A stretch of DNA of 52,396 nucleotides from Promethearchaeia archaeon (GTDB lineage: Archaea > Asgardarchaeota > Lokiarchaeia > Sigyniarchaeales > SOKP01). The stretch spans positions 1 through 52,396 of the forward strand of contig JAHQWG010000033.1 in the NCBI GenBank assembly GCA_029856045.1, in the 5' to 3' direction. The number at the start of each line of letters is the position of its first letter. Positions within the stretch are counted from its first letter, which is position 1. The position numbers were made by a program, and so were the translations under genes. Positions 26,772 through 31,220 of this stretch are shown in pieces. Below the pieces are notes generated by a model, which had not been told where the DNA came from, did not search any database, and was given only the letters and a program-made list of their open reading frames with translations.

Positions 26772-26955
26772 ACCTAATTCTTGAAGTGTTACTAAAAAAT
26801 ATTGAAATATCCCAGGTATATATAATAAAGTTAAAAATTAATTTACTCAATTATTAATCGCTAAATTTTTTTATGTCATCTAATTTTTTAAAATAATTAG
26901 TTTTAATAATCCACTCTGGTTTTTATTAAGTAAAAATACACAACGGTGATAAAAC

Positions 26956-27417
26956 ATAAAAAATATAAAATTTACAATCTTTGCTCCGATAAAGGGATTA
27001 AATAATGGTAGAATATATCAAGTTAAAGTAAAAGATGATGCTAACTTTATTGAATCTTTAGCTATGGTTGATAAAATTGTTCTTGAAGATCCAAAAAATT
27101 CTCCGTTTCCGTTGTATGATGGTTATATCAAAACTTATCTTCAATTATTTTGGAATCCACAGAAAAACGAGATTTATGATGACTGTGCCGTGAATGCTTA
27201 TGGGCCTAATAAGCAGTTTATGCCACTTCGGGATGATTTAGATTTCAATTTATATCCAGATAGTGAGATAAAAATACATCCCGACGCTGGATGTTGATGA
27301 GAAAAGGTAAAACAACGATTAGATATGGGGTCACTTAGAAAAATAATTATTGAAAAATTTGGAAAAGAAAATGAATCTTTTGCCCATTATTTTAAAAGAA
27401 AAAATAGAATAGAATAA
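26956..27417 (+). CDS. Putative selenoprotein: MoaD/ThiS/ubiquitin-like domain with tandem UGA (Sec-Sec)
   Basis: The frame has no ATG near its natural start; a GGTGAT ribosome binding site (26945-26950) points to AUA at 26956. Residues 1-113 form a beta-grasp domain: IKFTIFAPIKGL opens it and DFNLYPDSEIKIHPDAGC closes it, matching the end of MoaD/ThiS (normally ...GDEV..PPVAGG). Where Gly-Gly is expected the gene reads Gly-Cys, then UGA UGA at 27295-27300. The same frame stays open for 38 more codons (SLRKIIIEKFGKENESFAHY within) to TAA at 27415. A eukaryote-like SECIS lies 5 nt beyond. With both UGAs as Sec the protein has 153 residues, with Sec114-Sec115. If UGA is read as stop it ends at Cys113. 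No known archaeal selenoprotein family is recognised. Confidence 0.65.
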
Positions 27418-27422
27418 TTTGA

Positions 27423-27457
27423 ATGAAATCTTTCAGAAAATGTTAGTGAAAGATTGA
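27423..27457 (+). promoter_or_regulatory. SECIS element of eukaryotic type (for the tandem-UGA gene)
   Basis: AUGA (27423-27426), helix strand AAUCUUUC (27427-27434), apical loop AGAAAAUGUUAGU (27435-27447), helix strand GAAAGAUU (27448-27455) and GA (27456-27457) form the AUGA/GA kink-turn core, a perfect 8-bp helix and an A-rich loop. UUUG before and CAAA after can close a short basal helix. This is the layout of eukaryotic SECIS elements, known also from Lokiarchaeota. The same design recurs after MvhD. Confidence 0.82.
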
Positions 27458-27459
27458 CA

Positions 27460-27476
27460 AAAGGGTTGCGCCCTTT
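27460..27476. terminator. Hairpin between convergent genes
   Basis: AAAGGG and CCCTTT form a perfect 6-bp stem around TTGCG, just beyond the SECIS and about 45 nt from the end of the convergent FrhB/HdrC-like gene. It may be a terminator or may stabilise the 3' end of the selenoprotein mRNA. Confidence 0.4.
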
Positions 27477-27522: not shown

Positions 27523-28671
27523 TTAAGCGGTTTTTTCTAATTCCATTTCCCTTATTGCTTTACCAGAGCGGAACGGAATATCATCAATTGATTCTCCAGC
27601 AGTATAATTAAATTTCTCTTTAAATGTATCAATTAATGATTGGAAGTATTCAGATAATGGTAAGTTCATTGGACAATTATTGGCACAATTACCGCATTCT
27701 ATACATCTATCAGCGACATGTGCAACACGGGTTAATTGATATACATTATTATTAATTGATTTTTCTTTTCGTTTTTGCATTAAAATACAATCGATACAGT
27801 AACATACCGGGCAACCACGAATGCAGAGACCACACATAGTGCATTTGTTTAACATTTCCAATTTTTCGTCTTGATTCATAGTTTTCCATTCTTCCAAATC
27901 TTTAGTACGTTTTTCTTCAGCATTTTTTAAAATAGACGACACTCTTTCAGTATTGTGTTTTTTTAGGTCATCGGGAATTTTTCTGGTTTTAATTCCAGCT
28001 TTCTCAACAGCAGACTTTCCCTTCTCTGAATAGATACGTAATATCAAATCATCTGATTTTACAGAGATTCCGATATCACTTATAGATAAATCACCTATAA
28101 CAGGAACTTTTCTTAGGCATCTCAAACAGTTCTCTGCTATTTTTAAATTTTCATTAAACTCTAAAACCTCTAAATTCCCACCATCTAGGATGAGAGTAAG
28201 ATTTTCAGCGGTTAATTTATCCCGAATTATTTTGCTTTGATCAAACTCCTTTCTTTTGTTAAATATTTTTGTAATCATTGAAGATGGGATTAGTCCCATA
28301 TCTTCAATTGCAATAATAAATAAATTATCAGGATTGATTTGATGTAATTTAATAAGTTCAATTATCGCTCTTGTATCACAAGGACGAGCAATAAGTCCTA
28401 TTTTTTCATCCAATGCGCCATTTGCATTTTTATGTAAATATTTAGATGCACTATCGGTTCGAGCATAACCATAAGTAATAAGTTGAGAAAGCGGTAAATC
28501 CTCTAATTCTTCTGGTTTTGATACCAATTTTGGAGATACTGCAAAATGACCTTTTTTGATCTCGCCACTAATTATCTTCGACACTGCCTTTTCTTTTAGT
28601 AGGGATGATAAAATATTTTTAACATCTTCATATTTTATTAAGAATTCTTCCATTGGCTCCATGAATATCAC
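27523..28671 (-). CDS. FrhB/FdhB-like and HdrC-like iron-sulfur electron adaptor
   Basis: The 382-residue protein joins a FrhB/FdhB-like region (KIGLIARPCDTRAIIELIKL, NLFIIAIEDMG) to two [4Fe-4S] motifs near the C-terminus, CTMCGLCIRGCPVCYC and CIECGNCANNCPMNLP, the latter HdrC-like. Proteins of this type link a flavin or F420 dehydrogenase activity to heterodisulfide reductase modules. It follows MvhD by about 170 nt on the same strand and so probably belongs to the HdrA-MvhD complex. No UGA codons occur in this frame. No HdrB-type CCG subunit is in the window. Confidence 0.82.
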   Translation of the reverse strand: MIFMEPMEEFLIKYEDVKNILSSLLKEKAVSKIISGEIKKGHFAVSPKLVSKPEELEDLPLSQLITYGYARTDSASKYLHKNANGALDEKIGLIARPCDTRAIIELIKLHQINPDNLFIIAIEDMGLIPSSMITKIFNKRKEFDQSKIIRDKLTAENLTLILDGGNLEVLEFNENLKIAENCLRCLRKVPVIGDLSISDIGISVKSDDLILRIYSEKGKSAVEKAGIKTRKIPDDLKKHNTERVSSILKNAEEKRTKDLEEWKTMNQDEKLEMLNKCTMCGLCIRGCPVCYCIDCILMQKRKEKSINNNVYQLTRVAHVADRCIECGNCANNCPMNLPLSEYFQSLIDTFKEKFNYTAGESIDDIPFRSGKAIREMELEKTA

Positions 28672-28816: not shown

Positions 28817-28851
28817 TCATAACACGACTAAAATTTTCTCGTATTATTCAT
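28817..28851 (-). promoter_or_regulatory. SECIS element of eukaryotic type overlapping the mvhD stop codon
   Basis: On the minus strand the order is AUGA (28851-28848), AUAAUACG, loop AGAAAAUUUUAGU, CGUGUUAU, GA (28818-28817). The helix is 8 bp with one U-G pair. The 13-nt loop differs at one base from that of the SECIS at 27423. A longer outer pairing is possible between TTCCGACA (28793-28800) and TGTCGGAA (28855-28862). The mvhD stop (28846-28844) lies inside the helix, so the signal overlaps coding sequence. Confidence 0.8.
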
Positions 28852-29272
28852 TCTTGTCGGAACTTTTCTTATTGAGGGGATTTTTCCCAAGATTTCGTAT
28901 AAGCTTGTCGTAATTAATAGCTACTTGCTGAAATTTTTGTCCTTCTGCAGAACTACAATATTCCATCTTTACTCTTTTATCTGAGAGACCAATTACATTT
29001 AAAATTTGATTAATATATTCAACTTCTCTGTATGCTAATTTATTACCGATTTCATAGTCACATTCACCTGGATGTCATCCAACTACTAAAATACCATCCG
29101 CACCCTGACCAATAGCTCTCATTATTAATTCAGAACCAACTCTTCCTGCACAAGGTACTAAGATTGCTCTTATTGTCGTTGGATATTGCGCTCGAATTGT
29201 ACCCGCCATATCCCCTGCCCCATACCCTCATTTCCAACACATAAAAGAAGCAATTTTTATATCAGAACTCAT
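28844..29272 (-). CDS. mvhD: MvhD/VhuD-type electron-transfer subunit, selenoprotein with two Sec
   Basis: Read through two in-frame UGA codons the gene gives 142 residues, the normal size for MvhD, the [2Fe-2S] subunit that passes electrons from a hydrogenase or dehydrogenase to HdrA. Sec15 (UGA at 29230-29228) lies in ASFMCWKUGYGAGDMAG, where relatives have Cys. Sec66 (29077-29075) lies in VVGUHPGECDYEIGNKLAYR, the usual GCHPGxCxY motif. The context after each UGA stays conserved, so these are Sec and not stops. It begins 19 nt after hdrA. A SECIS overlaps its stop codon. Confidence 0.9.
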
Positions 29273-29291
29273 TTTTTTTACCTCTTTATAT

Positions 29292-31220
29292 TTACGCTTC
29301 AAATAATGTATCAATAATTGCATTATATTGATAATCTCTATAATAACGTAATTCTATAGCAAGTGATGGACAAATTGCTGCACACATACCGCACCCTTTA
29401 CAATTAATAAGGTCAACAACAATTTTTCCTGATTCATCAACTGATATAGCGCTATAAGGACATGTTTCAATACATTTATAACATTTTGCACAACGTTCAT
29501 CATTTGGTTGAGCACGAATTAATTCTATTGTATATTCTCCAGCAGTCATTGGGATTGAGGCAGCTTGTGCTGCACCTCTTGCTTGATTAACAGTTGCACC
29601 GATTGCTTTTTGCCCTTGACAAGAACCACAAATATAAATCCCAGCAATTTTTGTCTGAATTGGGTCAAGTCTAGAATGGAACTCCTTCAAAAATCCACTT
29701 GGACTTTTTTCTACTTTTAGAATTTGTGCAATTTCGTCTGTTCCTGCTGAAGGCAATGAAGCCGAAGATAATATTACTAATTCAGCTTCAAATTCAATAA
29801 TACCCCCAGTCCCTATTGATTCCATAGTAGCAATAAGATTTTTTGTTTCTGGATCTTCTTTTAATGCTCCTACTTTTCCATTTATAAACATAATTCCAGC
29901 TTCTCTAGAGCGTTTATAATATTCTTCATATGCTTTTCCGGCACATCTCATATCGATATATGAAACCACAATATTTGAATCCGGGTATTCTGACTTTATT
30001 AATTTTGAATTTTTAACTGAAAGAAGACAACAAACATTACTGCACCATGGATGCTCTTCATTTCTAGACCCAACACAATTTATAAACAAAATATTTTTTG
30101 GTCTCTTTCCATCAGATGGTCGCTTTAAGTGTCCAAGAGTTGGACCATTCGGAGCGATAGTTCTTTCAAGTTGAATTTGTGTAATAACATTGTCATATTC
30201 TCCGTAGCCATAATCATCTCCTTGATACATGTCCCAACCAGTAGCAATAATTATTGTTCCTACTTCAAATTCAACAATTTCGGGTTCTTGACTTAAATCA
30301 ATACAATGAACATCACAAGAATCAACACACGCGTAACATTCTACGCACCAATCCATCTGAAGATCCCAAACTGCAGGAACCGCTTGCGCAAAGGCTACAT
30401 CTATACATTTCCTAGCCGAGAGATTTTCATCAAAATAATTTGGCATATATATAGGACATACATCCGAACATGCACCACAACCAGTACAGATATCTTCATA
30501 AACATATCTTGGATTCTTACGTACTTTAACGGAAAAATTTCCAATATAGCCATCTACTTCTATAACTTCAGCCATTGTCATTGTTGTAATATTTGGATGT
30601 CTATTAGCTGCTAACATTTTAGGTCCGAGAATTCATATAGAACAATCATCGGTTGGAAAGGTTCGATCCAATTGAGCCATTCTTCCACCAGTTGTGGATT
30701 TTTTCTCAACAAGGTAAACCTTGAATCCTTCATTTGCTAAATCAACACTAGCTGTTAATCCTGCTATTCCTCCACCAACTACTAATGCTGCTTTTGTAAC
30801 TGGAACCGTTTTTGTTGGTATATCTTCTAAAACCTTAGCTCTTGCAATACCTGCTTTAATTAATTCAATCGCTTTTTCCGTTGCAATTTCTGGTTCTTGT
30901 TGATGGACATAGCTGCAATGTTCTCTAATATTAACAAATTGAAGAAATCGTGGTGGTAAATCTGCATCCTCCAAGACACTATGAAAAACCGGTTGATGTG
31001 TTATTGGTGTTCAAGCTGAAACTACAACTCGATCTAACTCGAGATCCTTAATTTTTTCTATAATAAAATCCGCTCCCGGGTCCGTACACATATTTAAGTA
31101 TTCCCAAGACCAAACATTCTCCATTTTACCGATTTCATAGACAATTTTTGGAACATCTAATATCCCCGCAATATTTATTCCTCATCTGCAAACAAATACT
31201 CCAATGCGAATTTCAGACAT
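29292..31220 (-). CDS. hdrA: Heterodisulfide reductase subunit A (HdrA), selenoprotein with three Sec
   Basis: The full 642-residue frame starts with ATG at 31220 behind AAAGGTG and contains three in-frame UGA codons. Sec13 (31184-31182) is in FVCRUGINIAG, Sec70 (31013-31011) in VVVSAUTPITHQ, and Sec196 (30635-30633) in DDCSIUILGPKM. Each replaces a Cys conserved in methanogen HdrA. Between and after them are the FAD motif VVGGGIAGLTASVDLA and four ferredoxin-type motifs, CTGCGACSDVCP, CVECYACVDSC, CAKCYKCIETCP and CKGCGMCAAICP. HdrA is the flavin bifurcation site of Hdr complexes. With MvhD and the FrhB/HdrC-like protein it would link an electron donor to ferredoxin. In ordinary annotation it would appear as broken fragments. 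Confidence 0.93.

Follow-up and report, generated by a model that had tools for sequence, protein, structure and literature searches.

Seven selenoprotein families of Asgard archaea, found by searching with known families, were reported by Huang et al. in 2024: SelD, FrhA/VhuU, HdrA, FrhD/MvhD, Prx-like, AhpF-N-like and DsbA-like (PMC11227280). The same study reports a type I, eukaryote-like SECIS element of the form AUGA...AAA...GA for these archaea, and hdrA-frhD clusters as an Asgard arrangement. In a 2026 inventory of 119 prokaryotic families (PMC13188914), the motif column contains no adjacent Sec residues and no family is ubiquitin-like, the one related entry being the adenylyltransferase MoeB; our own literature search found no papers on adjacent Sec residues or on ubiquitin-like selenoproteins.

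Among proteins of arsenic metabolism, ArsD has a thioredoxin-like fold. AfArsR coordinates As(III) with three ligands, Cys95-Cys96-Cys102, and without Cys102 its vicinal pair alone still binds methyl- and phenylarsenite (PMC4287715). For selenium, the bacterial SAO (Sec-assisted organometallic) system, with SaoC, SaoL, Sec-HgcA and Sec-HgcB, comes closest in function; as reviewed in PMC13188914, it has Sec in CU-type vicinal motifs and a metal or organometal context.

Here we describe a new selenoprotein family, known to date from Lokiarchaeota-type Asgard archaea alone, whose theme, selenium in metal(loid) handling, is a known one. With the known Asgard selenoproteins it shares UGA read as Sec, the type I SECIS (AUGA_GA, A-rich loop) and the host lineages, but it has no Pfam or NCBIfam match to them, a different fold, an adjacent Sec-Sec pair and no Cys-containing homolog that we could find. 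Its SECIS is followed by a conserved second hairpin, the presence of which in other Asgard selenoproteins lay outside the comparison. Neither the seven families of PMC11227280 nor the 119-family table in PMC13188914 includes it, in agreement with a preliminary description of this DNA, made from the sequence alone, which had not recognized it among described archaeal selenoproteins.

A gene with two adjacent UGA codons

The window, a stretch of 52,396 nucleotides (contig JAHQWG010000033.1) from an Asgard genome of 3.34 Mb, contains a reading frame that from position 26956 runs IKNIKFTIFAP...IHPDAGC, passes through TGA TGA (27295-27300), stays open for 38 codons and ends at TAA (27415-27417). 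The gene and its surroundings are listed in Table 1. The coordinates in the preliminary description proved exact. One correction concerns the start: the frame has no ATG, GTG or TTG start and is preceded by an in-frame TAA at 26950-26952, so that the start must be non-canonical, at ATA 26956 (or 26965), after a strong Shine-Dalgarno-like CGGTGAT.

Avoidance of AUG extends to other members: in 24 of 47, the stretch from the last in-frame stop to the conserved N-terminus contains no ATG, GTG or TTG. At the aligned start, 26 members have ATT and 5 have ATA, with TTA and GTC also found, and a strong GGAGGTGAT Shine-Dalgarno element lies upstream. These non-AUG starts bring to mind the AUU start of infC.

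Table 1. Features of the Sec-Sec gene and its neighbours in the window
Feature	Position	Strand	Remark
Shine-Dalgarno-like GGTGAT	26945..26950	+	Ahead of the non-canonical start; GGAGGTGAT-type element ahead of nearly all members
Gene of the Sec-Sec ubiquitin-fold selenoprotein	26956..27417	+	153 codons plus TAA; probable ATA start
Predicted ubiquitin/MoaD/SAMP1-like beta-grasp domain, residues 1-112	26956..27291	+	AlphaFold, Foldseek, hhalign
Cys113-Sec114-Sec115 (TGT TGA TGA; Sec inferred), on the MoaD Gly-Gly end	27292..27300	+	TGA-TGA in 47/47 members read directly
Conserved 38-residue tail with helix, ERLDxGxFKxxIRKKYGKxNExFAHYFK-like	27301..27414	+	dN/dS, pLDDT
eSECIS-like element, type I	27423..27458	+	AUGA core 27423-27426; stem 27427-27434 with 27448-27455; A-rich apical loop; GA 27456-27457
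Second small hairpin AAAGGGUUGCGCCCUUU (AGG...CCU)	27460..27476	+	Directly 3' of the SECIS core; conserved in the family
FrhB/FdhB-C + 4Fe-4S protein	27523..28671	-	Convergent neighbour; context only
MvhD/FrhD, selenoprotein of known type with two in-frame UGAs	28844..29323	-	Context: genome decodes UGA
HdrA-like ORF with three in-frame UGAs	29292..31220	-	Named from sequence and position beside MvhD

Conservation of the UGA pair and of the tail

Homologs were found in 63 genomes by tblastn (147 relatives), and the family profile matched 65 of the 228 genomes of the phylum. Among the profile matches, the weak ones in G087 and G088 are canonical MoaD proteins, and one match full of stops (G154) we regard as noise. 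All 77 tblastn or profile matches that span the site, in Asgard genomes, have in-frame TGAs, two or three each; four further matches are fragments that end upstream of the site and are not counted. In the 47 members that we extracted, the adjacency of the two UGAs was read directly in every case, and it is kept throughout as identity to the window protein drops from 84% to 23%. The two consecutive UGAs in an open frame from which the preliminary description had started are thus a property of the family. Nearly all of these genomes are likely MAGs, and all belong to one phylum. An assembly artefact could be ruled out, since independent assemblies concur.

Only 4 of 39 long ORFs of the window terminate in UGA, so it is not credible that two UGAs in a row would be conserved as a plain stop. 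Replacement of the pair by Cys-Cys, Cys-Sec or any other residues was not seen in the 228 Asgard genomes. Cys homologs were also absent from one limited contig scan that reached moderately close relatives only, those named being Candidatus Lokiarchaeota and one Helarchaeota MAG. The search for Cys-Cys homologs suggested in the preliminary description was therefore unsuccessful within these two sets.

In one near-complete genome of the same genus (G004), only a 27-codon gene fragment with stops is present (C12:108062-108142), near a similar FrhB/4Fe-4S gene, which looks like decay or loss of the Sec-Sec gene.

The preliminary description would have been contradicted by a tail without conservation, its codons evolving free of constraint. 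We find it conserved, with purifying selection acting on it. Where divergence is unsaturated, most pairs give the tail a dN/dS of about 0.05-0.3, the same as upstream of the UGAs; across the full set of pairs, median pN/pS is 0.39 for the tail and 0.46 upstream. AlphaFold places a helix at tail residues 124-135 with a pLDDT of about 95. Judged by its substitution pattern, the 38-codon tail is evolving as protein.

The SECIS element and the decoding of UGA

A eukaryote-like SECIS had been proposed to begin 5 nt past the stop. In the window gene the AUGA core does start five nucleotides after the TAA, and compensatory changes in the stem support the element. The segment 27412-27485 folds at -19.2 kcal/mol, compared to a mean of -9.8 for shuffled sequences (z = -4.07; 0 of 200 shuffles as good), and in most members the core lies about 107-139 nt after the first UGA. 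The element is recognizable in most, though not all, members, and we aligned forty sequences. In these, the AUGA and two loop adenines are invariant, and each of the eight stem pairs has cells in which both partners have changed; such cells number 55, compared to 17 in shuffles. This signal is lost when the partner columns are slid, and RNAalifold recovers the same stem unprompted. For the second hairpin, 83.6% of cells are paired and five of six pairs show both-side changes. The element has the form reported for Asgard archaea (PMC11227280).

Rfam has no known family at the locus, with chance snoRNA matches only. Across the genome, our SECIS model found no second confident element, only a single weak match without an adjoining UGA selenoprotein; the model thus describes the element of this family.

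In six loci (L006, L007, L012, L016, L033, L037) and in one gene of L045, the UGA within the SECIS AUGA core doubles as the stop codon of the gene. In these genes UGA would mean Sec ahead of the SECIS and stop within it, with a single mRNA decoding it two or three times as Sec before using it for termination. In a further locus (L048:633-1578), two tandem genes of different class (A, then B; see below) lie about 20 nt apart with a SECIS after the second only, so that one SECIS apparently serves four UGA codons in two cistrons.

The source genome (G000) is equipped for decoding: its tRNA-Sec gene adjoins that of SepSecS, its SelD gene has an in-frame UGA, and four MvhD/FlpD-type genes have two UGAs each. 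The MvhD and HdrA-like genes of the window, 1.4-3.8 kb downstream of the Sec-Sec gene and convergent to it, match the hdrA-frhD arrangement known from Asgard archaea (PMC11227280). Besides the family itself, other conserved in-frame UGAs in 61 neighbourhoods were confined to apparent alternative or antisense frames of other genes.

From these sequence data we infer that Sec insertion at both UGAs is near-certain. A standard gene caller would instead see a 77-codon ATG ORF that stops at the first UGA, leaving a protein with a C-terminal Cys, and the downstream codons as a second gene or untranslated. We give this reading practically no weight: frame, both UGAs and tail are conserved together in 77 homologs, the tail has the same dN/dS as the upstream part, the SECIS covaries, and the machinery for Sec is present.

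Predicted fold and relation to MoaD-like proteins

Sequence searches with the whole family against Pfam, NCBIfam and PDB gave nothing above noise. AlphaFold on the family alignment, with Sec modelled as Cys, yielded a confident prediction (pLDDT 91.2, pTM 0.88), for which Foldseek returned Haloferax SAMP1 as the first match in PDB (probability 1.00, TM 0.64-0.67 depending on target length, E about 0.002-0.006), followed by Urm1 and MoaD (probability 0.99 and up to 0.91). A comparison of the Sec-Sec profile with Asgard and E. coli MoaD by hhalign gave E = 7e-6 and a probability of 84%; in this alignment, PDAG falls on PPVG, at the Gly-Gly end of MoaD. Given both results, the beta-grasp assignment made earlier holds, as does the placement of Cys-Sec-Sec at the Gly-Gly position.

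The family is thus like SAMP1, Urm1 and MoaD in its predicted fold and in the PDAG that follows the last strand (PPVG-G(G) in MoaD). It differs in a longer middle region (LQLxWNPxxNxIYDD), in a conserved tail of 32-48 residues past the site, and in the lack of the terminal Gly-Gly needed for adenylation, in place of which members have G-C-U-U, HAD-UU or U-G-U-U. With UGAs, tail, covarying SECIS and fold in agreement, the core proposal of the preliminary description, a selenoprotein of a new, Sec-Sec kind built on a ubiquitin/MoaD-like scaffold, is supported.

The members fall into three paralog classes. Class A (C-UU) is the widespread form and paraphyletic; class B (HAD-UU, without Cys) and class C (U-G-UU, with three Sec) are each monophyletic with support 100/100. 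The Sec-Sec pair is the invariant element across classes, and it is the third chalcogen that varies. In three loci, a class C gene with three Sec codons lies beside a class A gene (L045:576-1061, L046:632-1108, L047:627-1103).

The fold and the distant similarity to MoaD and SAMP1, with PDAG on PPVG, could be taken to mean that the protein is a carrier or modifier of the ThiS/MoaD/Urm1/SAMP type. Its tail would be cleaved past the Gly or Cys, or translation would stop at the first UGA, and an E1-like enzyme would activate the C-terminus for sulfur or selenium. ThiF/E1-like genes do occur in 39 of 39 genomes searched. Against this, selection acts on the tail and on the UGAs, class B has no Gly-Cys at all, and no E1, rhodanese or JAB gene was recognized among the conserved neighbours; the ThiF/E1-like matches listed are on other contigs or tens of kilobases away, none beside the Sec-Sec gene. 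We consider such a role improbable because of the tail, the composition of class B, and the absence of a nearby E1-like gene among the matches listed. The roles entertained in the preliminary description, a carrier of sulfur or selenium, a modifier or a cofactor donor, accordingly find no support, the chain passing the Gly-Gly position.

Linkage to arsenic and mercury genes

We compared 61 loci, which are phylogenetically related. The gene for the arsenite pump Acr3 lies within 6 kb in 36 of them (within 3 kb in 33), the window's own copy being an exception, and ArsR within 6 kb in 38. A genome has roughly one acr3 gene, so the number of linked loci expected by chance is well below one; a binomial figure for this excess is nominal only, given the relatedness of the loci. 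Other recurrent neighbours are TrxL, a thioredoxin-fold protein with an invariant CxC (30 loci), a YdjM-type membrane protein (25), an HgcB-like ferredoxin (19), an HgcA-like corrinoid protein fused to a SAM methyltransferase (15), and ArsM or its TrxL-like C-terminal domain (13). The common order is Acr3 - (ArsM) - HgcA-like - HgcB-like - TrxL - Sec-Sec gene - YdjM, with ArsR divergent ahead of Acr3. Linkage to ars genes was found in eight genera, one of which (G069, g12) belongs to a different family and has a different orientation.

Twelve of the 61 loci have no ars or hgc gene, and the window copy is itself unlinked to ars genes, an acr3-arsR pair being located on another contig (C51). We recognized neither ArsA nor, in the operons, an arsenate reductase. 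In distant members from two further families (G070, G065, G082), the gene lies about 4 kb or less from a cation-efflux CDF transporter, which in two of them is the adjacent gene.

TrxL proteins (for example L061:7663-8061 and L059:10709-10990, and in 28 other loci) are small, with an invariant C-x-C. They have no Pfam or NCBIfam match and also occur fused to the C-terminus of ArsM (L066:8444-9556).

The fusion of HgcA-like protein and SAM methyltransferase is found, for instance, at L061:5523-7190, followed by an HgcB-like ferredoxin ending in CCG (L061:7244-7603), and also in L070 and others. With 191 bits against a cut-off of 275 for HgcA (NF040863), the HgcA-like protein falls short of the model. 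In these Lokiarchaeal Acr3/ArsR operons, the two proteins are possibly an arsenic- or mercury-methylating pair.

That HgcA-like and HgcB-like genes precede the Sec-Sec gene in 15-19 loci raises the question of whether the family serves mercury or corrinoid methylation rather than arsenic. Handing Hg(II) or a methyl acceptor over to the HgcA-like protein would then be the task of the Sec pair, as is thought for the vicinal Cys pair of HgcB. The selenoproteins of the bacterial SAO system include HgcA, HgcB and other CU proteins (PMC13188914). Compared to that system, as reviewed there, the Sec-Sec family is archaeal, in Asgard, rather than bacterial, has a ubiquitin-like fold, UU in place of CU, and Acr3, ArsR and ArsM genes around it, and the NCBIfam SAO models (SaoB, C, L, P, T, X, HgcA, HgcB) gave no relevant match in 47 members. 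Since linkage to Acr3 and ArsR is commoner and reaches genera without HgcA beside the gene, and many of the genes have no hgc genes nearby, we give little credence to a role in mercury rather than arsenic.

A proposed role in metalloid binding

The Sec-Sec gene is usually found among genes of arsenic efflux and of arsenic or mercury methylation, so its product is probably a selenium-armed handler of toxic metalloids. Given its partners in efflux and methylation, and the thioredoxin-fold TrxL with its CxC, the role with most support is that of a chaperone or trap for metalloids, and we favour, with modest conviction, a selenol-based metalloid-binding protein as the function of this new family from Lokiarchaeota-type Asgard archaea. 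This inference rests on the neighbourhood, that is, on guilt by association, as there are no binding, expression or proteomic data.

In the mechanism that we envisage, the MoaD/SAMP1-like beta-grasp domain would present Cys-Sec-Sec in a loop past the last strand, where its MoaD relatives have Gly-Gly, and the chain would run on into the conserved helical tail. Both UGAs would be read as Sec under the direction of the downstream eukaryote-like SECIS, as conservation suggests. The vicinal Sec pair, in most members with a third chalcogen nearby, would most likely bind a soft metal or trivalent metalloid: arsenite, methylarsenite or possibly Hg(II). The protein might then hold the metalloid or shuttle it among the CxC of TrxL, Acr3, and ArsM or the HgcAB-like proteins, the direction of transfer being likewise inferred. 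Selenolates bind soft centres such as trivalent arsenic more strongly than thiolates.

Such a role would resemble that of ArsD, with a different fold and with selenols in place of thiols. The family shares with ArsD and AfArsR a vicinal chalcogen pair with a third ligand, a location in ars operons and the proposed handling of trivalent arsenic. Its predicted beta-grasp fold and the lack of a Pfam match speak against membership in the ArsD family; it further differs in using selenols, in the absence of a recognized ArsA, and in that arsenic binding is only inferred.

The main rival to metalloid binding is a redox function, in which Sec-Sec (or Cys-Sec) alternates between the diselenol and the diselenide state and, together with TrxL, supplies electrons to the reduction of arsenic, to that of methylarsenic between ArsM steps, or to the corrinoid protein. 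Most Sec residues are redox-active, a thioredoxin-fold CxC partner is encoded next door, the chemistry of ArsM requires a reductant between methylations, and the window copy adjoins Fe-S proteins. The motif, too, would fit. Yet Sec-Sec is always kept, even where class B has no Cys and class C rearranges the third chalcogen, and no arsenate reductase was recognized in the operons. We therefore think a redox role unlikely to be the main one, but it remains possible, and the protein could have both functions.

Returning to metalloid binding, we advance a more comprehensive hypothesis only tentatively: that in Lokiarchaeota-type archaea a vicinal diselenol on a ubiquitin-like scaffold is the metalloid-binding centre of a selenium-dependent operon for arsenic and mercury detoxification, that HAD-UU and U-G-UU replace or add the third ligand, and that some of the mRNAs read UGA as Sec and then as a stop.

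Implications

With the Sec-Sec family, the archaeal relatives of eukaryotes have one more family of selenoproteins. It is invisible to standard gene callers because of its tandem UGA and non-AUG start, and surveys seeded with known families have missed it. Its members suggest that the C-terminus of a ubiquitin fold has been converted into a selenium site. With UGA read twice as Sec and once as a stop in the same frame of some members, and with starts of the AUU type, the family is a natural test bed for archaeal recoding, and selenium use in Asgard archaea gains a concrete, testable role in the handling of arsenic or mercury.
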